From a virus, in the IMG/VR virus record IMGVR_UViG_3300022538_000539, positions 1-64,000 of that record: a stretch of DNA of 64,000 nt. The stretch is one strand, 5' to 3'. Numbering within the stretch: the stretch's first letter is position 1; each line of letters begins with the position of its first letter. The notes below the pieces were generated by a model. It did not search any database. It was not told the DNA's origin and saw nothing but the letters and a program-made list of their open reading frames with translations. The translations under genes were made by a program, and so were the position numbers. Below are positions 27,762 to 54,947 of the stretch, piece by piece.

Positions 27762-28208
27762 ATGTCATCAGGAATGTATTTAAGAACAGAAAAACATAAA
27801 GGTAAAAATGCTCCTAATTACAAAGATGGAAGAACACTGAAAAAATATTATTGTACGAACTGTGGAAAAGAATTATCATATTACACTGCTAAAAGATGTC
27901 AAAGTTGTGCTAATAGAAAAAATTTTAGTGGTAAAAATAATCCTAATTGGCAAGGAGGTAATTCATTCAAACCATATTCTCCAAAATTCAATAATAATTT
28001 AAAAGAGAAAATTAGAAACAGAGATAATAAAACTTGTCAATTATGCAATAAAACAGAAAAACAAAATGGTAGAAATTTATCAATTCATCATATAGATTAT
28101 AATAAAAAAAATAGTAATCCAAATAATCTAATAACCTTATGTATAAGTTGCAATTTTAAAGTTAATTATAATAGAAATTATTGGATTAAATATTTTAGAA
28201 AAAAATAA
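27762..28208 (+). CDS. HNH homing endonuclease
   Basis: A 148-residue protein. Residues ~30-50 hold a zinc ribbon (YYCTNCGKEL ... RCQSC). A NUMOD3-type NNPNWQGG segment follows, then the HNH nuclease: CQLC, IHHIDYNKKN and LCISC. The middle closely matches the HNH at 30965-31420 (NNPNWQGG, FKPYSPKFNN), and its N-terminus matches the HNH at 32681-33160 (DGRTLKKYYC), showing domain shuffling among the phage's own HNH genes. It is the last plus-strand gene and converges with the minus-strand block 13 bases away. Confidence 0.75.
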   Translation: MSSGMYLRTEKHKGKNAPNYKDGRTLKKYYCTNCGKELSYYTAKRCQSCANRKNFSGKNNPNWQGGNSFKPYSPKFNNNLKEKIRNRDNKTCQLCNKTEKQNGRNLSIHHIDYNKKNSNPNNLITLCISCNFKVNYNRNYWIKYFRKK

Positions 28209-28846: not shown

Positions 28847-28922
28847 TGGAGCCAGCAGTCGGGTTCGAACCGACGACCTGTTCATTACAAGTGAACTGCT
28901 CTGCCAACTGAGCTACACTGGC
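28847..28922 (-). tRNA. tRNA-Thr(TGT)
   Basis: Acceptor GCCAGTG pairs with TGCTGGC, allowing wobble. The anticodon loop CTTGTAA lies in a GTTCA/TGAAC stem, the T-loop is TTCGAAC, and CCA is encoded. It abuts the next tRNA with no spacer. Confidence 0.9.
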
Positions 28923-28997
28923 TGGAACTGGTGATGGGACTTGAACCCACAAAACTGACTTGGAAGGACAGCATTTTGCCAATTAAATTACACCAGC
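28923..28997 (-). tRNA. tRNA-Gly(TCC)
   Basis: Acceptor GCTGGTG/CACCAGT, anticodon loop CTTCCAA, T-loop TTCAAGT, CCA encoded. The anticodon stem has one T-T mismatch. Confidence 0.85.
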
Positions 28998-29072
28998 TGG
29001 GGTAAGTGGCGAGACTTGAACTCGTATCTCATTGGTTCACAGCCAACACGCATTAACTTATGCTACACTTAC
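28998..29072 (-). tRNA. tRNA-His(GTG)
   Basis: Acceptor GTAAGTG/CACTTAC, anticodon loop CTGTGAA, discriminator C73 as expected for His, CCA encoded. The base before position 1 is C, so the usual G-1 is not encoded. Confidence 0.88.
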
Positions 29073-29073
29073 G

Positions 29074-29147
29074 TGGCAAATCCACAAGGACTCGAACCTT
29101 GAACTTCTGTTTTGGAGACAGATATTTTTCCATTAAACTATGGATTT
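29074..29147 (-). tRNA. tRNA-Trp(CCA)
   Basis: Acceptor AAATCCA/TGGATTT, anticodon loop CTCCAAA, T-loop TTCGAGT, discriminator G and CCA encoded. Anticodon CCA reads only UGG, consistent with UGA being a stop in this genome. Confidence 0.9.
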
Positions 29148-29223
29148 TGGTAACAGAGGAGGGACTTGAACCCCCAACCTTCTGGATGTAAGCCAGACAA
29201 TCTACCATTGATAATACTCTGTT
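29148..29223 (-). tRNA. tRNA-Val(TAC)
   Basis: Acceptor AACAGAG/CTCTGTT, anticodon loop CTTACAT in a TCTGG/CCAGA stem, T-loop TTCAAGT, A73 and CCA encoded. Confidence 0.9.
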
Positions 29224-29297
29224 TGGCTGAGAAGAAAGGATTCGAACCTCTATCAATGGATTCAAAGTCCACTATCCTACCATTAGACGACTTCTCA
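29224..29297 (-). tRNA. tRNA-Gln(TTG)
   Basis: Acceptor TGAGAAG/CTTCTCA, anticodon loop CTTTGAA, discriminator G73, CCA encoded. Upstream on the minus strand its 5' end directly follows a CCA-ended mini-hairpin (29298-29324). Confidence 0.88.
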
Positions 29298-29324
29298 TGG
29301 ATTTAGTTATTATTTAAACTAAAT
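29298..29324 (-). ncRNA. CCA-ended mini-hairpin in the tRNA array
   Basis: On the minus strand ATTTAGTT pairs with AACTAAAT across an 8-base loop and is followed at once by CCA, which abuts the 5' base of tRNA-Gln. The spacing is that of a tRNA 3' end. It may be the relic of a lost tRNA or a deliberate mini-substrate for tRNA enzymes. Confidence 0.45.
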
Positions 29325-29357
29325 TTTTTATTAAACCATAAAATATAATTATCAAAT

Positions 29358-29434
29358 TGGTATTCAGGGTAGGACTCGAACCTACATTAAACAGATTCTA
29401 AGTCTGCTGTGTTTGCCAATTACACCACCTGAAC
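29358..29434 (-). tRNA. tRNA with Leu anticodon TAG, short variable loop
   Basis: Acceptor GTTCAGG/CCTGAAT, D stem GTGT/ACAC, anticodon loop CTTAGAA, T stem GTAGG/CCTAC, A73 and CCA encoded. The variable loop is only about five bases (class I), unlike normal bacterial tRNA-Leu, which has a long variable arm. Confidence 0.85.
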
Positions 29435-29512
29435 TGGTGCTTGAAACAGGATTCGAACCTGTATAAAATGGATTTTGAATCCACTATGTTTGCCTAATTA
29501 CATCATTCAAGC
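29435..29512 (-). tRNA. tRNA with Leu anticodon CAA, short variable loop
   Basis: Acceptor GCTTGAA/TTCAAGC, D stem ATGT/ACAT, anticodon loop TTCAAAA, T-loop TTCGAAT, A73 and CCA encoded. The variable loop is about five bases, so it lacks the class II arm expected for Leu. Confidence 0.85.
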
Positions 29513-29589
29513 TGGTGTACAAGGTCAGATTCGAACTGACAAAAGATGGATTTTAAGTCCATTATGTTTACCAATTACATCACTTGTAC
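29513..29589 (-). tRNA. tRNA with Leu anticodon TAA, short variable loop
   Basis: Acceptor GTACAAG/CTTGTAC, D stem ATGT/ACAT, anticodon loop CTTAAAA in an ATGGA/TCCAT stem, A73 and CCA encoded. The variable loop is about five bases. It is clearly related to the two preceding Leu-anticodon tRNAs. Confidence 0.85.
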
Positions 29590-29666
29590 TGGTAGCGGGA
29601 GTGGGATTCGAACCCACGACCTTCTGGTTATGAGCCAGTTTATCTACCTGACTGATATATCCCGCT
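29590..29666 (-). tRNA. tRNA-Met(CAT), elongator-like
   Basis: Acceptor AGCGGGA/TCCCGCT, anticodon loop CTCATAA, T-loop TTCGAAT, CCA encoded. There is no C1-A72 mismatch and no run of three G-C pairs in the anticodon stem, so it is not an initiator. Lysidine-modified Ile cannot be excluded. Its first base is shared with the neighbouring CCA. Confidence 0.82.
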
Positions 29667-29742
29667 GGTCAGAGTGAAAAGATTTGAACTTTTGACCTCA
29701 TGTTCCCAAAACACGCGTTCTACCAGACTGAACTACACTCTG
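29666..29742 (-). tRNA. tRNA-Pro(TGG)
   Basis: Acceptor CAGAGTG/CACTCTG, anticodon loop TTTGGGA in a CGTGT/ACATG stem, T-loop TTCAAAT, A73 and CCA encoded. Confidence 0.9.
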
Positions 29743-29819
29743 TGGTGGAACGAACAGGACTCGAACCTACATCTTCCTGATTAAAAGTCAGACGCTTTAC
29801 CATATTAAGCTATCGTTCC
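29743..29819 (-). tRNA. tRNA-Lys(TTT)
   Basis: Acceptor GGAACGA/TCGTTCC, anticodon loop CTTTTAA, T-loop TTCGAGT, A73 and CCA encoded. Confidence 0.9.
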
Positions 29820-29822
29820 TAG

Positions 29823-29895
29823 TTGTATTGATGAGATTTGAACTCATATCTTGATGATTAAGAGTCATCTGTTTTACCAATTAAACTACAATACT
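29823..29895 (-). tRNA. tRNA-Lys(CTT)
   Basis: Anticodon loop CTCTTAA in a GATGA/TCATC stem, T-loop TTCAAAT. The acceptor pairs only GTATTG/CAATAC cleanly. The 3' end reads CTA instead of CCA, so it is the only tRNA here without an encoded CCA. It may be slightly decayed. Confidence 0.8.
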
Positions 29896-29971
29896 GGCTG
29901 TGCAGGTAGGATTCGAACCTACATCTTTGGGATTAACAGTCCCACATTTTACCAATTAATACTACTACACA
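29895..29971 (-). tRNA. tRNA-Asn(GTT)
   Basis: Acceptor TGTGTAG/CTGCACA with one G-T pair, anticodon loop CTGTTAA, T-loop TTCGAAT, G73 and CCA encoded. A CCA-ended mini-hairpin lies directly upstream. Confidence 0.88.
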
Positions 29972-29998
29972 TGGATTATAAGTCCTCACGCTTATAAT
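29972..29998 (-). ncRNA. CCA-ended mini-hairpin in the tRNA array
   Basis: On the minus strand ATTATAAG pairs with CTTATAAT across the 8-base loop CGTGAGGA, followed at once by CCA next to the 5' end of tRNA-Asn. A related hairpin without CCA lies at 30007-30024. Confidence 0.45.
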
Positions 29999-30006
29999 AC
30001 TACAAT

Positions 30007-30024
30007 ATAAGTCCCTGTGCTTAT
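30007..30024 (-). ncRNA. Hairpin related to the CCA-ended mini-hairpin
   Basis: ATAAG pairs with CTTAT around the 8-base loop CACAGGGA, similar in position and purine pattern to the loop CGTGAGGA of the neighbouring hairpin. The remaining sequence to 30089 is AT-rich with no gene seen. Confidence 0.3.
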
Positions 30025-30089
30025 CAAAGGCAACCTATATAATTTTATCTCTTATCAAAATTTATGATAATTTTTTATATTAGATATTT

Positions 30090-30178
30090 TGGCGGAAGAG
30101 ACAGGATTCGAACCTGTGTGGGTTTTACCCCAATGGATTAGCAGTCCATCTCGATAAACCTGACTCTGACACTCTTCC
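30090..30178 (-). tRNA. tRNA-Ser(GCT)
   Basis: Acceptor GGAAGAG/CTCTTCC, anticodon loop CTGCTAA, a proper class II variable arm (TGGGG/CCCAC), G73 and CCA encoded. An HNH gene separates it from the next tRNA. Confidence 0.9.
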
Positions 30179-30186
30179 TGGATTAA

Positions 30187-30609
30187 TTATTTCTCCTTCA
30201 ATCCATATTTTCCATCAAACCATTTCAAATAATCATCAATTCCTTGTTTTCCATATTTATAATAAATATAATCATATGCTCTTTGATGTAATAATCCATG
30301 TTTTGAATTTGATAATAATATAATTTCATCATTATTTTCTTTTAAATAAATATGATGCTTACATAATATATTTCTTGCTTTTTCTCTAAATTCAGAATTT
30401 TGCCATTGTTTCTTTGTTGCTATCCTTAAATTTTTTTTATGTTCATCAGTTAATTTTCTACCTGTAAGTGCTTTGCTTATTTTTTTTCTAGTTTTTTCAG
30501 AATATTTTTTAGTTTTTAAATTATGTCCATTAATATACTTATTTCCTAATTTTACAATTTGTCCACATCCACACTTACAATATTTTATTTTAATTTCACA
30601 TAATTTCAT
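30187..30609 (-). CDS. NUMOD3/HNH-type homing endonuclease in the tRNA array
   Basis: A 140-residue basic protein. Residues ~10-20 hold a small Cys cluster (CKCGCG). NUMOD3 DNA-binding repeats follow (SEKTRKKISKALTGRKLTDEHKKNL), then a His-rich nuclease end (LCKHHIYLKENNDEIILLSNSKHGLLH). It sits cleanly between two tRNA genes and does not interrupt either. It ends close to the tRNA-Ser 5' side, after AATCCA. It is related to the HNH at 32681-33160 in the last 60 residues. Confidence 0.75.
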   Translation of the reverse strand: MKLCEIKIKYCKCGCGQIVKLGNKYINGHNLKTKKYSEKTRKKISKALTGRKLTDEHKKNLRIATKKQWQNSEFREKARNILCKHHIYLKENNDEIILLSNSKHGLLHQRAYDYIYYKYGKQGIDDYLKWFDGKYGLKEK

Positions 30610-30642
30610 TTTATTCTCCTAATTGATATAAATATTAAATTC

Positions 30643-30728
30643 TGGTAGACGAGGTAGGATTCGAACCTACGAAGCTCTCAGCAATGGTATATAAGACCAT
30701 CTCCTTTAACCTGCTTGGATACTCGTCC
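30643..30728 (-). tRNA. Class II tRNA with Ile anticodon TAT
   Basis: Acceptor GGACGAG/CTCGTCT, anticodon loop CTTATAT in an ATGGT/ACCAT stem, A73 and CCA encoded. It has a long variable arm of ~13 bases (GCT/AGC stem), which tRNA-Ile never normally has. The body closely resembles the tRNA-Tyr at 31682-31767, so this looks like a Tyr-type body with a changed anticodon. Confidence 0.82.
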
Positions 30729-30817
30729 TGGTAGACAGGATAGGATTTGAACCTATGAAACTTTAATAGTAATGGCATATCAGACCATTCTCTTTGACCA
30801 AACTTGAATACCTGTCC
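30729..30817 (-). tRNA. Class II tRNA with Ile anticodon GAT
   Basis: Acceptor GGACAGG/CCTGTCT, anticodon loop CTGATAT in an ATGGT/GCCAT stem, A73 and CCA encoded, and a ~15-base variable arm with an ACT/AGT stem. With its neighbour it is the only source of Ile anticodons in the set. Confidence 0.82.
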
Positions 30818-30889
30818 TGGAGACAGAGAGGGGAGTCGAACCCCTGTGGATAGTTTTGCAGACTACCTCGATTCCAAATCTACTCTGTC
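30818..30889 (-). tRNA. tRNA-Cys(GCA)
   Basis: Acceptor GACAGAG/CTCTGTC, anticodon loop CTGCAAA, T-loop TTCGACT, CCA encoded. The D arm is short (GAT/ATC around TTGGA). Confidence 0.83.
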
Positions 30890-30965
30890 TGGTGGAGAAA
30901 TTTGGAATTGAACCAAAACCTACAGGTCTTCAACCTATCGTGCAGACCTCTTACACCATTTCTCC
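30890..30965 (-). tRNA. tRNA-Phe(GAA)
   Basis: Acceptor GGAGAAA/TTTCTCC, anticodon loop TTGAAGA in an ATAGG/CCTGT stem, T-loop TTCAATT, A73 and CCA encoded. Its 5' base touches the stop codon of the neighbouring HNH gene. Confidence 0.88.
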
Positions 30966-31420
30966 TATCTTATTTGATTATGACATCTAATACATAAAGT
31001 TAATAAATTATCTAATTTATTATTTTTCTTATTATCATTAATATGATGAACATGCAATTTTTGATTATATTTTTTAATATATTCCTCCTGAGTTATTCCA
31101 CATTTTTGACAAATATGATTATCTCGTTCCCTAATAAATTCTTTTAACTTATTATTAAATTCTGGAGAATAAGGTTCAAATGATTTGCCACCTTGCCAAT
31201 TAGGATTATTTTTACCTCTCATAATTTTTTTAATTGTTTTTCTATATTTAGGATTTTTCCAAACTTGTTCCATACTTTTACTAACACTTATGCTTATATT
31301 TTTCCTATGTTCTTCAGTAAGTTTTTTACCTTTATGTGCTTTACTTATTTTCTTTTTAACTTTTTTAGAAACTATATGTCCTTTAACAAATCTTCCTTTA
31401 TTATTTCTATCTTTGTTCAT
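30965..31420 (-). CDS. NUMOD3-HNH homing endonuclease in the tRNA array
   Basis: A 151-residue protein with NUMOD3-type repeats (KKVKKKISKAHKGKKLTEEHRKN), then NNPNWQGG and a C-terminal HNH nuclease: CQKC, VHHINDNKKNN and LCIRCH. It lies between tRNA-Phe and tRNA-Asp and touches the tRNA-Phe 5' end. It shares its C-terminal half with the HNH at 27762-28208. Confidence 0.8.
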   Translation of the reverse strand: MNKDRNNKGRFVKGHIVSKKVKKKISKAHKGKKLTEEHRKNISISVSKSMEQVWKNPKYRKTIKKIMRGKNNPNWQGGKSFEPYSPEFNNKLKEFIRERDNHICQKCGITQEEYIKKYNQKLHVHHINDNKKNNKLDNLLTLCIRCHNQIR

Positions 31421-31439
31421 TTTTATCCCCCATATTTTT

Positions 31440-31516
31440 TGGCGACACTAACGGGATTTGAACCCGTATCTCTTGCGTGACAGGCAAGTGTCATAACCTG
31501 ATTAGACCATAATGTC
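31440..31516 (-). tRNA. tRNA-Asp(GTC)
   Basis: Acceptor GACATTA/TAGTGTC, anticodon loop CTGTCAC in a CTTGC/GCAAG stem, G73 and CCA encoded. Confidence 0.9.
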
Positions 31517-31591
31517 TGGTAGAACTAGTGAGAATCGAACTCACATCATATGCTTGAAAGGCATATATCCTAACCATTAGACCATAGTTCC
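31517..31591 (-). tRNA. tRNA-Glu(TTC)
   Basis: Acceptor GGAACTA/TAGTTCT, anticodon loop CTTTCAA in a TATGC/GCATA stem, T-loop TTCGATT, A73 and CCA encoded. Confidence 0.9.
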
Positions 31592-31681
31592 TGGCGGAAA
31601 GAGTAGGATTCGAACCTACGGAAGTTTTACCTTCAATAGTTTTCAAGACTATCACAATAAACCTGACTCTGACATCTTTCC
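31592..31681 (-). tRNA. tRNA-Ser(TGA)
   Basis: Acceptor GGAAAGA/TCTTTCC, anticodon loop CTTGAAA in an ATAGT/ACTAT stem, class II variable arm (GAAG/CTTC), G73 and CCA encoded. Confidence 0.9.
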
Positions 31682-31767
31682 TGGTGGAGAGAATAGGATT
31701 TGAACCTACGAACCCATACGAGAGCAGTTTTACAGACTGCCTGCTTTAACCACTTGCATATCTCTCC
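31682..31767 (-). tRNA. tRNA-Tyr(GTA)
   Basis: Acceptor GGAGAGA/TCTCTCC, anticodon loop CTGTAAA in a GCAGT/ACTGC stem, long variable region, A73 and CCA encoded. It is the likely relative of the two Ile-anticodon class II tRNAs. Confidence 0.9.
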
Positions 31768-31844
31768 TGGTACGCCTGGTAGGACTTGAACCTACATCTT
31801 GCGGATTAGAAGTCCACTGTTCTATTCCATTAAACTACAGACGT
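31768..31844 (-). tRNA. tRNA-Arg(TCT)
   Basis: Acceptor ACGTCTG/CAGGCGT with one G-T pair, anticodon loop CTTCTAA in a GTGGA/TCCGC stem, A73 and CCA encoded. Confidence 0.88.
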
Positions 31845-31920
31845 TGGTGGAGATAGAGGGACTTGAACCCACAACTTCAGGGTGCAAACCTAATGTTTTT
31901 CCAATTAAAACTATATCCCC
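31845..31920 (-). tRNA. tRNA-Ala(TGC)
   Basis: Acceptor GGGGATA/TATCTCC, anticodon loop TTTGCAC in a TTAGG/CCTGA stem, A73 and CCA encoded. The G3-U70 pair that marks tRNA-Ala is present. Confidence 0.9.
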
Positions 31921-31999
31921 TGGAGTGCCTGATGAGATTCGAACTCACAATCTATGGGTTCGTAGCCCATTGTTTTATATCCAATTAAACTACAGACAC
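31921..31999 (-). tRNA. tRNA-Arg(ACG)
   Basis: Acceptor GTGTCTG/CAGGCAC, anticodon loop CTACGAA in an ATGGG/CCCAT stem, T-loop TTCGAAT, CCA encoded. A34 would need conversion to inosine by host TadA to read CGC and CGA. It is the first tRNA of the array in transcription order. Confidence 0.9.
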
Positions 32000-32012
32000 T
32001 TAAATAAAAAAT

Positions 32013-32047
32013 ACTTATTTTTTTAAAAGAAATAAGTAGAAAACTTT
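32013..32047 (-). ncRNA. H-type pseudoknot RNA element K1
   Basis: Minus strand order: AAAG, UUUUCU, ACUUAUUU, CUUU, UAAAA, AAAUAAGU. Stem 1 is AAAG/CUUU and stem 2 is ACUUAUUU/AAAUAAGU, interleaved as in an H-type pseudoknot, with a U-rich first loop and an A-rich last loop. It matches six elements at 35349-35812 in layout but not in stem sequence. Confidence 0.55.
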
Positions 32048-32096
32048 GTGGATTTAATTAATATGTTTAAATTATAAATGAATTTATTTAAAACAT

Positions 32097-32162
32097 CTAA
32101 TTCATACCTCCACTAAACCATTCTAAATGTTCTTCTATTTGCTTACAATTTTCTTTCGGCAT
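32097..32162 (-). pseudogene. 22-codon remnant of an HNH/NUMOD3 endonuclease
   Basis: A tiny frame beginning MPKENCKQIEEHLEWF resembles the N-terminus shared by the phage's HNH proteins (MPKKGYKQTEEH at 33160 and MAKKGYKQTEEH at 36488) and stops after 21 residues. It is probably what remains of a lost copy. Translation is unproven. Confidence 0.4.
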
Positions 32163-32199
32163 CTTACCTTCTTATATTTATTTCTAATTATTTATTAAT

Positions 32200-32302
32200 G
32201 GATATTTTTTAAATCGGTTGTGTTTATTCTGTAAGATAGAGCAAACACACTTGGATAAATCTCTAACTTACATTTGCCTATTTAAGAAATATAGAAATAT
32301 CC
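32200..32302 (-). ncRNA. Structured RNA element with 8-bp closing stem
   Basis: GGATATTT and AAATATCC form a perfect 8-bp closing stem across ~100 bases. Inside, GTAAG/CTTAC and TAGAG/CTCTA form an 11-position stem with one mismatch (32231-32241 with 32261-32271). No reading frame is seen. It lies in the gene-free stretch 32163-32544. Confidence 0.45.
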
Positions 32303-32358
32303 AAAAACTATATTTCGCAAAATTTTTATAAATACTGTTTAGTAATTTAAAACCCAAA

Positions 32359-32442
32359 CAAGTATAAGAACTCCTTCTACACTTGGTAGATGAGATTATA
32401 CCTGCCTTTGCCATCAACTTTGCTAACGCAGTTGCAGGTATA
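32359..32442 (-). ncRNA. Two adjacent strong hairpins
   Basis: The first (32359-32385) pairs CAAGTGTA..GAA with TTC..TATACTTG around a GGAG loop on the minus strand. The second (32397-32442) has a perfect 9-bp stem TATACCTGC/GCAGGTATA enclosing a smaller AACT/AGTT hairpin. A further 8-bp pairing GAAGTTTT/AAAACTTC spans ~32450-32496, and a small GGG-CGT-CCC hairpin lies near 32517. No protein gene is present. Confidence 0.4.
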
Positions 32443-32544
32443 TTTTAATGAAGTTTTTTTATAACTATTCATCCCTAACAACAACTAGAAAACTTCAAAA
32501 CTAATTGGTTCTTTTGGGACGCCCATCAGCTTGACACATTTTTA

Positions 32545-32599
32545 ATGGCGAAAAGTATAATTTATCTACTAAATACATAATAGGAACTTTCTATGCCAT
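32545..32599 (-). ncRNA. Covarying stem-loop RNA family, copy R1
   Basis: Minus strand: outer stem ATGGC/GCCAT, conserved AUA, middle stem GAAAGU/ACUUUU, conserved UCCUAUU, inner hairpin AUUUA-GUAGA-UAAAU, and a conserved C before the closing strand. Compared with copies R2-R4 the middle stem changes on both sides (G-C to A-U), which supports RNA pairing. Confidence 0.65.
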
Positions 32600-32609
32600 A
32601 TTCTTTATA

Positions 32610-32676
32610 AATAGCGAGAAGTAAATCTTTAGACAGGGTCTCCCCTGTATATAAAATAGGAACTTCTTATGCTATT
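32610..32676 (-). ncRNA. Covarying stem-loop RNA family, copy R2
   Basis: Outer stem AATAGC/GCTATT, AUA, middle stem AGAAGU/ACUUCU, UCCUAUU, inner stem ACAGGG/CCCUGU capped by the GNRA tetraloop GAGA on the minus strand. It lies four bases beyond the stop of the HNH gene. Confidence 0.7.
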
Positions 32677-32680
32677 ATTT

Positions 32681-40679: not shown

Positions 40680-41843
40680 TTATAAATCTTTCTCCACTTT
40701 CTTTAAAAAATTAACCCAATATTTTTCCCATATTGTTTCATATTCAAAATTTTTCGCCCATTTTAATGATTTATCCTTATAAAAATTTTTATTCTTTTTT
40801 AAATTAAGATATACCTTTTCCATTTTTTTAACTATATCCTTAGTAACTGGTTTTTTTCTAAAACTACTAAAAAGTGTTAATTCTGGTTCTCCTACTCTAA
40901 CTAATTCACCTGCTCCAACTAACTCAGGCATAGAACTAAAATTAGAAACAATAACAGGAAGTCCTACTGCTTGTGCTTCTATTATTGGCAAACCAAAACC
41001 TTCACCTGCTGAACAACACATCAAAACATCCATAGAATTATATATTTTATTCATTGCTGTTGGATTTAAACTCATTAAATATTCATATTTATTAATAATT
41101 TTAATTGCTTTATCAAGTTTTAATCTTATTATATAATCTACAAGAGGAACAGAAAAAGTCTGTACTTTTGTTGAGGAATGTATATACATTTTAGTATCAG
41201 GATATTTCTTGTGTATTTTTTGAAAAGCCCTCAATTGTCTATCAAATTGTTTCCTATCAGTTTCATCACTATTTGCTGCAACTATCCCAAAAACAAAATC
41301 CTTTTCATCAAAACCTAATATTTTTTTACATTTATTCCTTACGTCCTCTTTTAATGGATAATAACTTATTGGGTCAAAACCTAATGGTATGTATTCAGAA
41401 TATATACCAGCATTTTTTAATTGTTTAACCGCAAATTTTGAATAGTTTATACTTTTCCATGCTCCCTTTAAATGATTAAGCACTGTATTAGATGCAGGAG
41501 TATGGTCAATTGGAAAATAAGGTATCCATCTTTTGAATCTTTTTCCATATCCTTGAAGTATATAAACATCACACAAAGTTATTATTAAATCTCTTTTAAA
41601 TCTATCAAAATAATATTTCACAATATCATAACCATATCTTTCATAACCTGTAGGAAGTATTAAACAAGAATAATTTTTCCCATAATATTTCAAATTATAT
41701 TGTAAAACACCATTCTGCAAACCATAATGTGCCATAATTATAACATCATAACCTTCTTTAATTAATTTGGCAGCAAATAAATTTGTCTGGACACCATATC
41801 CAGAAGGACAAAAAGGTGCTGTGGATTCTAATAATATTTTCAT
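40680..41843 (-). CDS. Glycosyltransferase family 4-like
   Basis: A 387-residue GT-B enzyme. The N-terminal Rossmann domain opens FCPSGYGVQTNLFAAKLIKEGYDV. The C-terminal domain has FGIVAANSDETDRKQF, then the nucleotide-sugar motif SAGEGFGLPIIEAQAVGLPVI with the E-x7-E pair. It is paralogous to the GT4 at 53691-54947. It may glycosylate virion proteins, host surface or modified DNA. SD AAGGAG. Confidence 0.8.
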   Translation of the reverse strand: MKILLESTAPFCPSGYGVQTNLFAAKLIKEGYDVIIMAHYGLQNGVLQYNLKYYGKNYSCLILPTGYERYGYDIVKYYFDRFKRDLIITLCDVYILQGYGKRFKRWIPYFPIDHTPASNTVLNHLKGAWKSINYSKFAVKQLKNAGIYSEYIPLGFDPISYYPLKEDVRNKCKKILGFDEKDFVFGIVAANSDETDRKQFDRQLRAFQKIHKKYPDTKMYIHSSTKVQTFSVPLVDYIIRLKLDKAIKIINKYEYLMSLNPTAMNKIYNSMDVLMCCSAGEGFGLPIIEAQAVGLPVIVSNFSSMPELVGAGELVRVGEPELTLFSSFRKKPVTKDIVKKMEKVYLNLKKNKNFYKDKSLKWAKNFEYETIWEKYWVNFLKKVEKDL

Positions 41844-41851
41844 ACTTCTCC

Positions 41852-42181
41852 TTAAATAGTAGTATCTATATACATTAGGTTTGAATTTTTATTTTTCTTT
41901 ACTTTGGATTCAAAATTAATAACAGCAACTTGTATTGTATTAGCAACTATTTCTATTTCTCTTAACATACTTATTGTAGTTTCCAAATAACGTAACAAAT
42001 TTTGATTGTTTTTTGTTATAACTCTTGACTCATTTAAAAGTGGTAATTCTAAATGACCTAATTTTACAAACTGTATTGCATCGCCTTTCTTCAAATCAAA
42101 ATACTGTACCATAGATACTTGTATTCTATGTGTTAAAACTAACATTTTTTGTAATTGTTCGAGCATATTTCTAAAATGCAT
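41852..42181 (-). CDS. Hypothetical protein
   Basis: A 109-residue helical protein (LEQLQKMLVLTHRIQVSMVQYFDL ... LREIEIVANTIQVAVINFE) with no recognised domain. It overlaps the ParB-like gene by one base and may act with it. Confidence 0.5.
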   Translation of the reverse strand: MHFRNMLEQLQKMLVLTHRIQVSMVQYFDLKKGDAIQFVKLGHLELPLLNESRVITKNNQNLLRYLETTISMLREIEIVANTIQVAVINFESKVKKNKNSNLMYIDTTI

Positions 42182-43077
42182 TATTCCTTCTCAATCATTT
42201 TTTCTAATTTAAAAAAAAGAGATGTTAACATAAATTTTAAAGTATTCACTTGATAATCTTTTAAATTAGTATTTGATTTTATATTTTCCAATAACCATTC
42301 TAAATGAGTGATTGTATTAGACAATGTTGTACGAAGTTTATTATAATACATTCCTGTATATTTTATTTTATCTCGTTCTCGTTTGATTTCTTTTGTCCAT
42401 TCTACTGCAGTCATAAAACCATATTTTAGAATATTTTCTTGGTCTTCTTTTTTAATATATTGAAAGTAAGGAATTAAATTTGTGATAAATGATACAGGAA
42501 GTAATTTTTTCTTTTTTAAATCCTTAATTTCACTAGCAAGTTGCAATCTTTCTTCTATTGTTAAATATTCAAATCTAGAAACAATTCGTGCTGTTAGTAC
42601 TTCAAATTGTATCAATTTTCCTTCATCTACACCATACCCTAAACTTAACCAAAACTTTCGTAATTTTCTTAAATAACTTGCATCTATTCCTAATTTTTTA
42701 CCAAGTTGTGAACTATTCATTCCTGTTTTTTTAAACAAATTATAAATTGCTCTTGCTTTATCTGGAAATGTAGGCAGATTTTTACTATTTAGACAAATAG
42801 AAACTTGACGAAATAAATTATCATCATTATTGTCAAGAACTATACAATTAATAGTATTTTGTTTCAACAACTTTATTGCTCTAAATCTTCGTTCACCATC
42901 TATTAATTTGTACTTATTTCTAAAAGGTTTAACCATTATAGGATTTAATAATCCAACTTCCTTAATATTTGTGGCAAGTTTCTTTACATCAATGGTTTTA
43001 TTGACACGTGGATTAGCTTTATCTAAAACAATATCCTTTATATTAATTTCTCTTAATTTTTGTTTTAATTTTTTCAT
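42181..43077 (-). CDS. ParB/sulfiredoxin-like N-terminal domain protein
   Basis: A 298-residue protein. Residues ~10-95 form a ParB-like domain: KDIVLDKANPRV, LATNIKEVGLLNPIMVKP, KLIDGERRFRAIKLL. Residues ~115-140 look like a helix-turn-helix (MNSSQLGKKLGIDASYLRKL). The remainder is helical. Next to terminase genes this could be a DNA-binding partner in genome packaging, a partition protein or a regulator. Confidence 0.75.
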   Translation of the reverse strand: MKKLKQKLREINIKDIVLDKANPRVNKTIDVKKLATNIKEVGLLNPIMVKPFRNKYKLIDGERRFRAIKLLKQNTINCIVLDNNDDNLFRQVSICLNSKNLPTFPDKARAIYNLFKKTGMNSSQLGKKLGIDASYLRKLRKFWLSLGYGVDEGKLIQFEVLTARIVSRFEYLTIEERLQLASEIKDLKKKKLLPVSFITNLIPYFQYIKKEDQENILKYGFMTAVEWTKEIKRERDKIKYTGMYYNKLRTTLSNTITHLEWLLENIKSNTNLKDYQVNTLKFMLTSLFFKLEKMIEKE

Positions 43078-51965: not shown

Positions 51966-52600
51966 ACTGGTTGTCTGCCTACATATTTCTTTAAATCTGG
52001 ACTAGCTAATAAATCTGGAATTGGTTGTCCTGGATAATATCTAGCATATCTTCCTTTTGCATCTAATGCCCAACCATAATGAAAAATTATAGCATTAGGA
52101 ACAAGTGTATATTCAGATATAGGACGAGGATTACCAACCTTATAAACAATTTCATGGATTACATTTTTCCAATAATAACCCAATCCTAATCTTATAGCTC
52201 TGCCTTGAGTATCTGGAAATAATTTGTATTTAAAATGTTTTGTATCTCCAAAAAATTCTATTCTTGGAAAAACTAAAAATTCATTCTTTTTATTATTCAT
52301 AAACAATTTTGCTTCTTCAATTCCCTCTTTAAACATACACTCATCAGCATCGAGCATAAAAAGCCAATCATAACCTTTCTCTTCTGCTTTTTTAACACAA
52401 TAAGTTCTTGCTTCGCCAAAATTATTATTCCATGGTCTATTAAATACTTCTGCTCCATATCCTTGTGAAATTTCAACTGTTTTATCAGTAGATTCTGCAT
52501 CAATTACTATAAAATGTTCAAAACAAGGAGCAATAATTGGTAGATGTCGTTTTAACATAAATTCCTCATTCTTTGTTATCATTCCAAGTACTATTTTCAT
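51962..52600 (-). CDS. Glycosyltransferase family 2-like
   Basis: A 212-residue GT-A enzyme: GMITKNEEFMLKRHLP, FIVIDAESTDKTVEI, ARTYCVKKAEEKGYDWLFMLDADE with a metal-binding Asp-x-Asp-like DADE. It belongs to the GT2 group that includes Kdo/heptose and glucosyl transferases. ATGA-type overlaps with both neighbours imply one translational unit. Confidence 0.8.
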   Translation of the reverse strand: MKIVLGMITKNEEFMLKRHLPIIAPCFEHFIVIDAESTDKTVEISQGYGAEVFNRPWNNNFGEARTYCVKKAEEKGYDWLFMLDADECMFKEGIEEAKLFMNNKKNEFLVFPRIEFFGDTKHFKYKLFPDTQGRAIRLGLGYYWKNVIHEIVYKVGNPRPISEYTLVPNAIIFHYGWALDAKGRYARYYPGQPIPDLLASPDLKKYVGRQPV

Positions 52601-53694
52601 TTAATTGCCTCCAATTTCTTTAAAATATCATCTCCAACTACTTTCATATTTAATTTATTTTTAACAAAATCTTGAGCTAATTTACCTTTTTGAATAGTTA
52701 ATTTTCTGTTAGAATACGCTTCCCACATACTAATTGCTAAATTACTATCATTAGGTTCTGCCCACAATTGAGAAGAATTATACCACTGAATATGTTCCAT
52801 TCCAAATACATTAATTAATTTATATTCAAGCAACCAAGAATTTTTATTATTAAGAAATTTATGAATACCACCAAAATTAGTAGATATAATAGGAGTAGCA
52901 ACTGACATAGCTTCCATTTGTGGATAACCCCAACCTTCTCCTCTGTGAGGAGCAACAAAACAATTACCTGTTTTATGTAATCTCATAATATCATAAGTAC
53001 TTAATTCTTCAAGAAATAAAAATATTTTAGGATAATGTTTTAAATTTAATTCTTCTTTCCATTTATAAATATTATCCTTAATTGTTTTTGTTCCATCTTT
53101 TAAAAAATTACTTTGATAAACTTTCAATAACAAAGCAACATCATTTTTATTCGCAAAAGTTTTCCAATAAGTTTTGAGTAGCATTTTAGGATTTTTTCTT
53201 TCTGTCCACTCAAATATAGAATAAAAAAGAAAACCTTTAAATCCCTTAATTTTAATAGGTTTATATTCATTTTTGATTTCAATAGGTTGTTTAATAACTT
53301 TAATAGGAACAATAACACCACTATCTTTAAAAGTATTAGCAGAAACATGAGAAGAAGTCCAAATCTCACTCATCTTGTTCATACAATCTACCCAATATTT
53401 ATCCACCCCTAATACTTCCCAAAATAACATTCCAATATTATATTTATTTTTTTCTCTTGCAAAAATTGCATATTCAGGTGTAAACATTATTATTTTAATA
53501 TCATAATTAAGTTTCTTATTTGCTAATTTTTTTGCTTGTTTTGCACCTTCATCTAAATTATCCATTTCTGCACGAATAAGTGCAACTTCTGTTGTTACAT
53601 TGATACCAGCTTCTAACATAGCTTGAAGTAAACTTCTTGCTGCTCGACCATAACCACTATAACTAAGAAACCAAGATGTAAATTTTATATTCAT
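52597..53694 (-). CDS. Glycosyltransferase family 4-like
   Basis: A 365-residue GT-B enzyme. The N-terminus reads FTSWFLSYSGYGRAARSLLQAMLEAG. The C-terminal donor-binding part has FVAPHRGEGWGYPQMEAMSVATPIISTNFGG, where EGWGYPQMEA is the E-x7-E motif. It has overlapping starts with neighbours on both sides. Confidence 0.8.
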   Translation of the reverse strand: MNIKFTSWFLSYSGYGRAARSLLQAMLEAGINVTTEVALIRAEMDNLDEGAKQAKKLANKKLNYDIKIIMFTPEYAIFAREKNKYNIGMLFWEVLGVDKYWVDCMNKMSEIWTSSHVSANTFKDSGVIVPIKVIKQPIEIKNEYKPIKIKGFKGFLFYSIFEWTERKNPKMLLKTYWKTFANKNDVALLLKVYQSNFLKDGTKTIKDNIYKWKEELNLKHYPKIFLFLEELSTYDIMRLHKTGNCFVAPHRGEGWGYPQMEAMSVATPIISTNFGGIHKFLNNKNSWLLEYKLINVFGMEHIQWYNSSQLWAEPNDSNLAISMWEAYSNRKLTIQKGKLAQDFVKNKLNMKVVGDDILKKLEAIK

Positions 53695-54947
53695 ACTTTT
53701 TCTACCTCTAACAAATCATTGATTGTATTGTAAGTAATCTGTTTAATATTATTGTTAGCTAAATTTATTTTTGTATGTTTAAATTCTTTTTTTATTTTTC
53801 CAAAAAATCCTTTCATATAATTTTTCCACACATATTCCATATCCCATTTTTTAGCAGTTTTTAAACACCCCTCTTTGTAATAATCAGGATTTCTTTTTAA
53901 ATTTAAATAAACAATTTCCATTTTTCTAATTATATCATCAATGTCTGGTTTTTTTCTCCAACTTCCATAATATGTCATATGTATATCTTTTGTTTTTACT
54001 AACTCACCATTTATACCCGGTTCTACAATATCAGGCATTGAACTAAAATTAGTAGCAATAACAGGAGTACCTGCTGATATACTTTCTATAAGAGGAACTC
54101 CAAATCCTTCTCCACTTGAACAATTCATTAAACAATCTATTACATTATAAATTTTATTTACTTCTACTTGGGATAAACCAATAAGACATTGCCATTTATC
54201 TATTACTGTTACATACTCATCTAATTTAAGAGTTTTTACATAATCTCTAATAGGAATACAAGGCATTCCAAGACGAATATCATTTGTGTGTATAAATAAT
54301 CTAACATTAGGATATTTTTTAACAAATTGTTTAAAAGCAAGTAACTGACTTCCAAATTCTTTTCTATCTTCATAATCTAAATTTGCTGCTACTATTCCAA
54401 ATACAAAATTTCTTTTATTAAAACCTAAAGTTGTTTTTTTATTTTCTATATTAATAGGTTTAAAAATAGTACTATCAACACCAAAAGGCAAATAAGTTGC
54501 ATTAATTCCTACTTTCTTAAGTTCTTTAATAGCAAATTTACTATAAGATACAGGTTTCCAACAACCTCGTAAATTATGATAGACAAATCTACTTACAGGT
54601 TGATGGTCTACTGGAAAAATTGCTATCCATTTATTTGGAAATCTTTCTCCATAATTTCTAAGAACAAAAACATCACAATGAGTAATAATAATATCACAAT
54701 TAAATCTTTTAAAATAATAATCAATTATATCTTGACAATGATTCTGATATCCTGTAGGCAAAACTACAATAGGATAAAATTTATTTCTATATTTAAGAGA
54801 ATAAGTAAGTGACGCTTCATTCAAACCATAATTAGAAGCCCAAATTACTTCATGATTATTTTGTAATAATTTTACTGCCAATAATGTTCCTTGAACAGAA
54901 TATCCAGTATGACAAAAAGGTGCTGTAGTTTGAAGTAATATTTTCAT
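53691..54947 (-). CDS. Glycosyltransferase family 4-like
   Basis: A 418-residue GT-B enzyme paralogous to that at 40680-41843; the two share FCHTGYSVQGTLLA/FCPSGYGVQTNLFA, FPVDHQPVS/FPIDHTPAS, FGIVAANLDYEDRKEF and EGFGVPLIESISAGTPVI. The last ~35 residues are an added basic tail. It overlaps the bL27 start by one base (TAATG-like), so bL27 and glycan genes are translated from one message. Confidence 0.8.
   Translation of the reverse strand: MKILLQTTAPFCHTGYSVQGTLLAVKLLQNNHEVIWASNYGLNEASLTYSLKYRNKFYPIVVLPTGYQNHCQDIIDYYFKRFNCDIIITHCDVFVLRNYGERFPNKWIAIFPVDHQPVSRFVYHNLRGCWKPVSYSKFAIKELKKVGINATYLPFGVDSTIFKPINIENKKTTLGFNKRNFVFGIVAANLDYEDRKEFGSQLLAFKQFVKKYPNVRLFIHTNDIRLGMPCIPIRDYVKTLKLDEYVTVIDKWQCLIGLSQVEVNKIYNVIDCLMNCSSGEGFGVPLIESISAGTPVIATNFSSMPDIVEPGINGELVKTKDIHMTYYGSWRKKPDIDDIIRKMEIVYLNLKRNPDYYKEGCLKTAKKWDMEYVWKNYMKGFFGKIKKEFKHTKINLANNNIKQITYNTINDLLEVEKV

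Follow-up and report, generated by a model that had tools for sequence, protein, structure and literature searches.

Why phages carry tRNA genes has been an open question for over 50 years. Known systems for comparison include the 228 viral tRNA clusters of 15-37 genes surveyed by Morgado and Vicente (2019, PMC6409571), eight of which hold all 20 isotypes, and the phage tRNAs that evade nucleases, where a host nuclease cuts a host tRNA and infection is restored by a phage tRNA that differs from it at the cleavage site, anticodon or variable loop (PMC10264068, PMC11555353, PMC13096335). One example is tRNA-Tyr: when Septu/retron-Eco7 cleaves the host molecule in its variable loop, the phage counterpart rescues infection (PMC13096335). 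In bacteria, a long variable arm (class II) is found in tRNA-Leu, tRNA-Ser and tRNA-Tyr, the remaining isotypes being class I (PMC7609411). Here we describe a tRNA array in the virus record IMGVR_UViG_3300022538_000539 of IMG/VR (115,399 bp), the first 64,000 nucleotides of which form the window analyzed. The array carries anticodons for all 20 amino acids, and the variable-arm classes of its leucine (short) and isoleucine (long) tRNAs are the reverse of the bacterial rule, a feature that the original prediction made from this DNA had not mentioned. We posit, with a probability of about 0.6, that the array is a compact operon that would supply a near-complete decoding set when host tRNAs are degraded, nuclease-cut or limiting.

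A compact array of 26 tRNA genes

ARAGORN and the Rfam model RF00005 (gathering score 29 bits), run independently, recover the same 26 minus-strand genes, which together span 28847-31999 (3,153 bp). The RF00005 scores run from 71.1 down to 40.5 bits, so that every gene exceeds the gathering score, and the predicted array and isotype list stand. No further tRNA genes were found outside the array in the record. At this size and density the locus is a viral tRNA gene cluster in the sense of PMC6409571 (at least 15 tRNA genes, at least 2 per kb) and, by anticodon, belongs to its all-20-isotype subset. Because tRNA-His, tRNA-Cys, tRNA-Arg(ACG) and tRNA-Lys(CUU) carry atypical features, 20-amino-acid coverage is a claim at the level of anticodons, not of aminoacylation. 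In 21 genes no mismatch interrupts the acceptor, anticodon or T stem; the other 5 have a single mismatch each. As predicted, CCA is encoded by all genes but one (25 of 26), the exception being tRNA-Lys(CUU). The features, in window coordinates, are listed below; each tRNA was called by both ARAGORN and Rfam.

28847-28922, minus strand: tRNA-Thr(UGU)
28923-28997, minus strand: tRNA-Gly(UCC)
28998-29072, minus strand: tRNA-His(GUG), lacking G18G19 and an encoded G-1 (read from the sequence)
29074-29147, minus strand: tRNA-Trp(CCA)
29148-29223, minus strand: tRNA-Val(UAC)
29224-29297, minus strand: tRNA-Gln(UUG)
29358-29434, minus strand: tRNA-Leu(UAG), class I, 77 nt, no long variable arm; A73, A14, A15-U48, G18G19 and A20a kept
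29435-29512, minus strand: tRNA-Leu(CAA), class I, 78 nt
29513-29589, minus strand: tRNA-Leu(UAA), class I, 77 nt
29590-29666, minus strand: tRNA-Met(CAU), initiator-like body (A11-U24), A1-U72 pair
29666-29742, minus strand: tRNA-Pro(UGG), its final A being the first base of tRNA-Met
29743-29819, minus strand: tRNA-Lys(UUU)
29822-29895, minus strand: tRNA-Lys(CUU), no encoded CCA (3' end C-T-A), A1-A72 mismatch
29895-29971, minus strand: tRNA-Asn(GUU)
30090-30178, minus strand: tRNA-Ser(GCU), class II
30187-30609, minus strand: homing-endonuclease-like open reading frame (ORF) within the array, 140 aa (phrog_314, 4e-6; phrog_655, 5e-5)
30643-30728, minus strand: tRNA-Ile(UAU), class II, 86 nt, Tyr-type D-arm and variable arm (3-bp stem, UU before C48)
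30729-30817, minus strand: tRNA-Ile(GAU), class II, 89 nt, Tyr-type architecture as in tRNA-Ile(UAU)
30818-30889, minus strand: tRNA-Cys(GCA), 40.5 bits (the lowest score), 3-nt D-loop
30890-30965, minus strand: tRNA-Phe(GAA)
30965-31420, minus strand: HNH endonuclease ORF within the array, 151 aa (PF01844, 1.5e-5; phrog_8446, 6e-21)
31440-31516, minus strand: tRNA-Asp(GUC)
31517-31591, minus strand: tRNA-Glu(UUC)
31592-31681, minus strand: tRNA-Ser(UGA), class II
31682-31767, minus strand: tRNA-Tyr(GUA), class II
31768-31844, minus strand: tRNA-Arg(UCU)
31845-31920, minus strand: tRNA-Ala(UGC)
31921-31999, minus strand: tRNA-Arg(ACG), U73

Most genes abut directly, with zero spacer at 17 of the 25 junctions, a one-base overlap at two (Met/Pro and Lys(CUU)/Asn), spacers of 1-2 bases at two and longer gaps at four (60, 118, 464 and 474 bp); HNH/homing-endonuclease ORFs occupy two of these long gaps, and two further such ORFs lie near the array. 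The original prediction was right about this abutment and wrong to require 3' trimming at direct junctions, where a single RNase P cut should suffice. If the array is transcribed as a single unit, one such cut at a zero-spacer CCA junction would release a mature 3' CCA together with a mature 5' end, an arrangement that suits fast release. Trimming would be unneeded at these junctions and needed at the four long gaps, the 1-2-base gaps and tRNA-Lys(CUU). The tRNA-Met combines the initiator-like A11-U24 with an A1-U72 pair and may act as either initiator or elongator.

Codon coverage and genetic code

Codon use was taken from 155 non-overlapping ORFs of the whole record, about 31,600 codons. Under wobble rules the array reads every sense codon except CGG, which is used 5 times, and thus 99.98% of codons; strict Watson-Crick matching accounts for 55%. 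A-ending codons dominate (AAA 104.5, GAA 63.5, TTA 50.6 and ATA 47.9 per thousand), and the expectation that the anticodons mostly suit an AT-rich codon choice is borne out only where a choice exists, among U34 tRNAs. The UAU anticodon of tRNA-Ile reads AUA (48 per thousand) directly, so that a TilS/lysidine-modified host tRNA is not needed.

The genetic code looks standard, as supported by codon use and by homologs of the phage DNA polymerase. All three stop codons are used (TAA 103, TGA 41 and TAG 11 ORFs) and none of the 26 tRNAs is a suppressor (no CTA, TCA or TTA anticodon); with no suppressor tRNA and no depleted stop codon, stop-codon recoding is ruled out. In a codon-to-residue test of the DNA polymerase with up to 80 homologs from IMG/VR, Ile was the most frequent residue in the ATA and ATT columns, followed by Val and Leu, which rules out recoding of Ile codons.

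Short-armed tRNA-Leu and long-armed tRNA-Ile

The three tRNA-Leu are class I, 77-78 nt in length with a 4-nt variable loop before N48, and thus lack the long arm of bacterial tRNA-Leu; in a control of two bacterial genomes, all tRNA-Leu seen measured 82-89 nt and the sole tRNA-Ile seen 75 nt. When anticodons are masked, each Leu body scores highest against class I tRNA-Leu from other phages, one of them clearly and two narrowly. All three genes keep A73, A15-U48, G18G19 and A20a, elements that are essential for E. coli LeuRS according to a review, and E. coli tRNA-Leu variants without the variable arm are still active (PMC9976931). With these elements kept and arm-less variants active, LeuRS likely charges the three class I tRNA-Leu.

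Both tRNA-Ile are class II, 86 and 89 nt long, with 12-14 nt before C48 where bacterial tRNA-Ile has a short loop, and they carry an Ile anticodon, A37 and A73 (anticodon loops CTTATAT and CTGATAT). Their acceptor, anticodon and T stems pair fully. Three compensatory double changes separate one gene from the other, and 6-8 separate them from the class II tRNA-Ile(GAU) of another phage; such changes point to selection that maintains the structure. A prediction artefact is ruled out by these fully paired, co-varying stems and by the same form in other phages, which also rules out a feature unique to this phage. The masked Ile bodies score better with Tyr, Asn and Ser class II models than with ordinary Ile, and their variable arm, with a 3-bp stem and UU before C48, resembles that of the phage's own tRNA-Tyr; its tRNA-Ser has 0-1 nt at this place. 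These tRNAs likely originated from a tRNA-Tyr-type gene with an altered anticodon. Could they then be something other than Ile acceptors, charged with Tyr or Ser or serving as nuclease decoys? The affinity of their bodies to Tyr, Asn and Ser models would suit this idea, as would the lack of A38 and the presence of C12-G23 in both genes, which count as departures from E. coli tRNA-Ile elements. We nevertheless consider it quite improbable: Ile codons make up about 9.7% of all codons and the homolog columns show Ile, so misreading would be costly; the base of the arm is of the Tyr type (2 nt before C48), not the Ser type, and the Tyr anticodon is absent; and A73, A37 and C4-G69 are consistent with Ile. 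Since Ile is the most frequent residue in the ATA/ATT columns, insertion of Tyr or Ser at these codons appears unlikely.

Pattern scans of viral contigs, with class tallies counted inside the fetched loci, show that among phages short-armed tRNA-Leu is common, long-armed tRNA-Ile(UAU) is common, and long-armed tRNA-Ile(GAU), as here, is rare. The scans returned many long-armed tRNA-Ile, with a large family of 91-94-nt tRNA-Ile(UAU) and a handful of tRNA-Ile(GAU), the nearest in L207. In a first tally, whose loci were picked only for an ordinary tRNA-Ile(GAU) and so were not chosen on Leu, class I made up 50 of 120 distinct tRNA-Leu and class II 14 of 27 tRNA-Ile(UAU); the count of class II among tRNA-Ile(GAU), 0 of 91, is biased by that choice of class I loci. 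Loci picked for class II tRNA-Leu gave class II in 9 of 17 tRNA-Ile(UAU) and 0 of 15 tRNA-Ile(GAU). Class I tRNA-Leu is also present in phages FelixO1, Acinetobacter Acibel004 and Providencia PR1, and not in T4 or T5. In 257 Gb of cellular genomes the class II tRNA-Ile(GAU) pattern matched 99 stretches, only two of which fold accordingly, both lone tRNAs with G73. A separate Bacillota control of low sensitivity (299 genomes) yielded 15 class II matches in 11 genomes versus one class I match (G73). We found no report of the variable-arm swap in the openly licensed papers searched.

Other unusual arms were seen along the way. The 91-94-nt tRNA-Ile(UAU) family (L086-L183) has a long arm whose AGATT-like loop is conserved even as the bodies diverge. 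A 37-tRNA phage array (L407) holds single Met, Thr, Ile, Cys, Asn and Lys tRNAs of 84-89 nt and a tRNA-Leu(UAG) of 78 nt, and class II tRNA-Asn (85-86 nt) occurs in Acibel004 and PR1 (L214:1670-1755, L215:2023-2107). Another phage, with class II Ile, Met and Asn tRNAs (L408), additionally encodes an 81-nt tRNA with a CUA anticodon, termed Pyl by ARAGORN.

We tentatively raise the idea, which we think doubtful, that arm reshaping is systematic in phages with large tRNA sets, Leu losing the arm and Ile (mostly UAU, here also GAU) gaining it, and that it would hide essential tRNAs from nucleases that recognize or cut the arm, as Septu/retron-Eco7 does in tRNA-Tyr, while synthetase recognition is kept. 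The swap may thus bear on phage escape from tRNA-cutting defenses, and it makes two questions testable: do arm-cutting defenses spare phage tRNA-Leu and tRNA-Ile, and does bacterial IleRS accept a class II tRNA? For annotation, assuming class II Leu and class I Ile risks misnaming or missing phage tRNAs.

What the array may be for

During infection, a tRNA pool of its own would keep phage translation running under host tRNA shortage or cleavage, with host LeuRS and IleRS presumably charging the class I tRNA-Leu and class II tRNA-Ile; loss of host tRNAs would be the selective pressure. The record also encodes RlaP, of an RNA repair pathway (PF10127, 1.5e-26; record 75849-76526, L001:12850-13527), and an RNA ligase (PF09414, 6e-16; record 83244-83969, L002:1244-1969), which may repair tRNAs in the same setting; both genes appear consistent with RNA damage as a threat to the phage. 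The original prediction that host tRNAs are lost or insufficient fits the all-but-CGG coverage, the tRNAs without synonymous effect and this pair of genes; the host tRNA loss itself we infer, and the anticodon-nuclease defense that the prediction gave as an example is a conjecture.

The array might instead merely boost supply for codons more frequent in the AT-rich phage than in its host. U34 tRNAs fit the dominant A-ending codons and tRNA-Ile(UAU) decodes AUA directly, as such codon compensation would have it, but a complete set is unnecessary for this purpose, Watson-Crick matching is low, and the tRNAs for eight amino acids, namely Met and Trp and, with G34, Phe, Tyr, His, Asn, Asp and Cys, cannot shift synonymous supply, the first two having a single codon and each G34 tRNA decoding both members of its box. 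These eight favor replacement over compensation, which we regard as unlikely; a set reading all used codons but one is what distinguishes the two. Alternatively, HNH/homing endonucleases and recombination could have gathered and amplified tRNA genes, many of little use. Two endonuclease ORFs in the array and two nearby are in keeping with such build-up, endonucleases and tRNAs are likewise associated in FelixO1 and T5, and SegB amplifies tRNA genes in T6 (PMC13096335). Near-zero redundancy (one gene per needed anticodon), intact co-varying helices and near-perfect coverage are, however, unlike the outcome of unselected accumulation, and we hold this explanation to be very improbable.

Several points weigh against the replacement of host tRNAs. 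A computational study of phage Sf14, with 26 tRNAs, excluded anticodon-nuclease escape (PMC12482277). In our case the loss of host tRNAs is a presumption, and the role of the RNA ligase is putative. The function of tRNA-His (no G18G19 or G-1), tRNA-Cys (3-nt D-loop), tRNA-Arg(ACG) (U73) and tRNA-Lys(CUU) (A1-A72, no CCA) may be weakened. Finally, A15-U48 also occurs in many other tRNAs of the array and so is not Leu-specific evidence; we dropped it as a mark of tRNA-Leu.

Genome setting

The array is placed at a GC-skew sign change, adjoined by late genes. The skew switches sign at window position 28000, between plus-strand structural/lysis genes and the minus-strand part of the genome; the head closure and endolysin genes (26-28 kb) are plus-strand, the terminase and DNA polymerase genes minus-strand. 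About 680 bp immediately upstream of the array (window 32000-32680) hold no clear gene, and a sigma-70-like site is present at 32783-32756 on the minus strand, such matches barely exceeding chance. Of 133 genes, 77 have a Shine-Dalgarno core upstream, compared with 25.7 in shuffles; the host therefore probably uses such sites.

A ParB-like protein is encoded beside the terminase (window 42181-43077), and several glycosyltransferases are encoded at window 40680-41843 and 52597-54947. L002 and L003 also encode a peptide deformylase (1e-37) and a DNA polymerase III beta clamp, along with a protein that weakly matches the Thoeris inhibitor Tad4 (1e-6). Megablast returned no near-identical phage, identity among IMG/VR relatives of the DNA polymerase does not exceed 37%, and a terminase search matched two distant loci.

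Comparison with known arrays

The type of array described here is uncommon but already known: the predicted rarity of a complete set agrees with the survey (8 of 228 viral clusters, PMC6409571), and all 20 amino acids are also covered in at least six of the IMG/VR loci fetched. Its variable-arm pattern sets it apart as a variant. Like the surveyed clusters, it holds its 26 genes, about 8 per kb, in a single cluster; it differs in the size of the record (115 kb versus a median of 148 kb) and in the Leu/Ile arm swap, the survey text being without the word "variable". Shigella phage Sf14 (PMC12482277) and Salmonella phage FelixO1 (NC_005282) have 25-26 tRNAs as well. In FelixO1, too, HNH genes lie between tRNAs and the three tRNA-Leu (78-79 nt) are class I, but its tRNA-Ile(GAU) is an ordinary class I tRNA of 76 nt, while the 26 tRNAs of Sf14 cover 19 amino acids (PMC12482277). 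T5-like phages (T5, AY543070; Providencia PR1) also carry more than 20 tRNAs, with HNH endonucleases among them in T5 and class I tRNA-Leu in PR1, which has a class II tRNA-Asn too; in contrast to the packed array, the tRNA genes extend over about 13 kb, and tRNA-Leu(UAG) (85 nt) and tRNA-Ile (77 nt) of T5 are both ordinary. The phage L207/L411 from IMG/VR, with 34 tRNAs, shares the Tyr-type class II tRNA-Ile(GAU) and class I tRNA-Leu; it is a separate virus contig, in which tRNA-His, tRNA-Met and some tRNA-Leu are class II as well.

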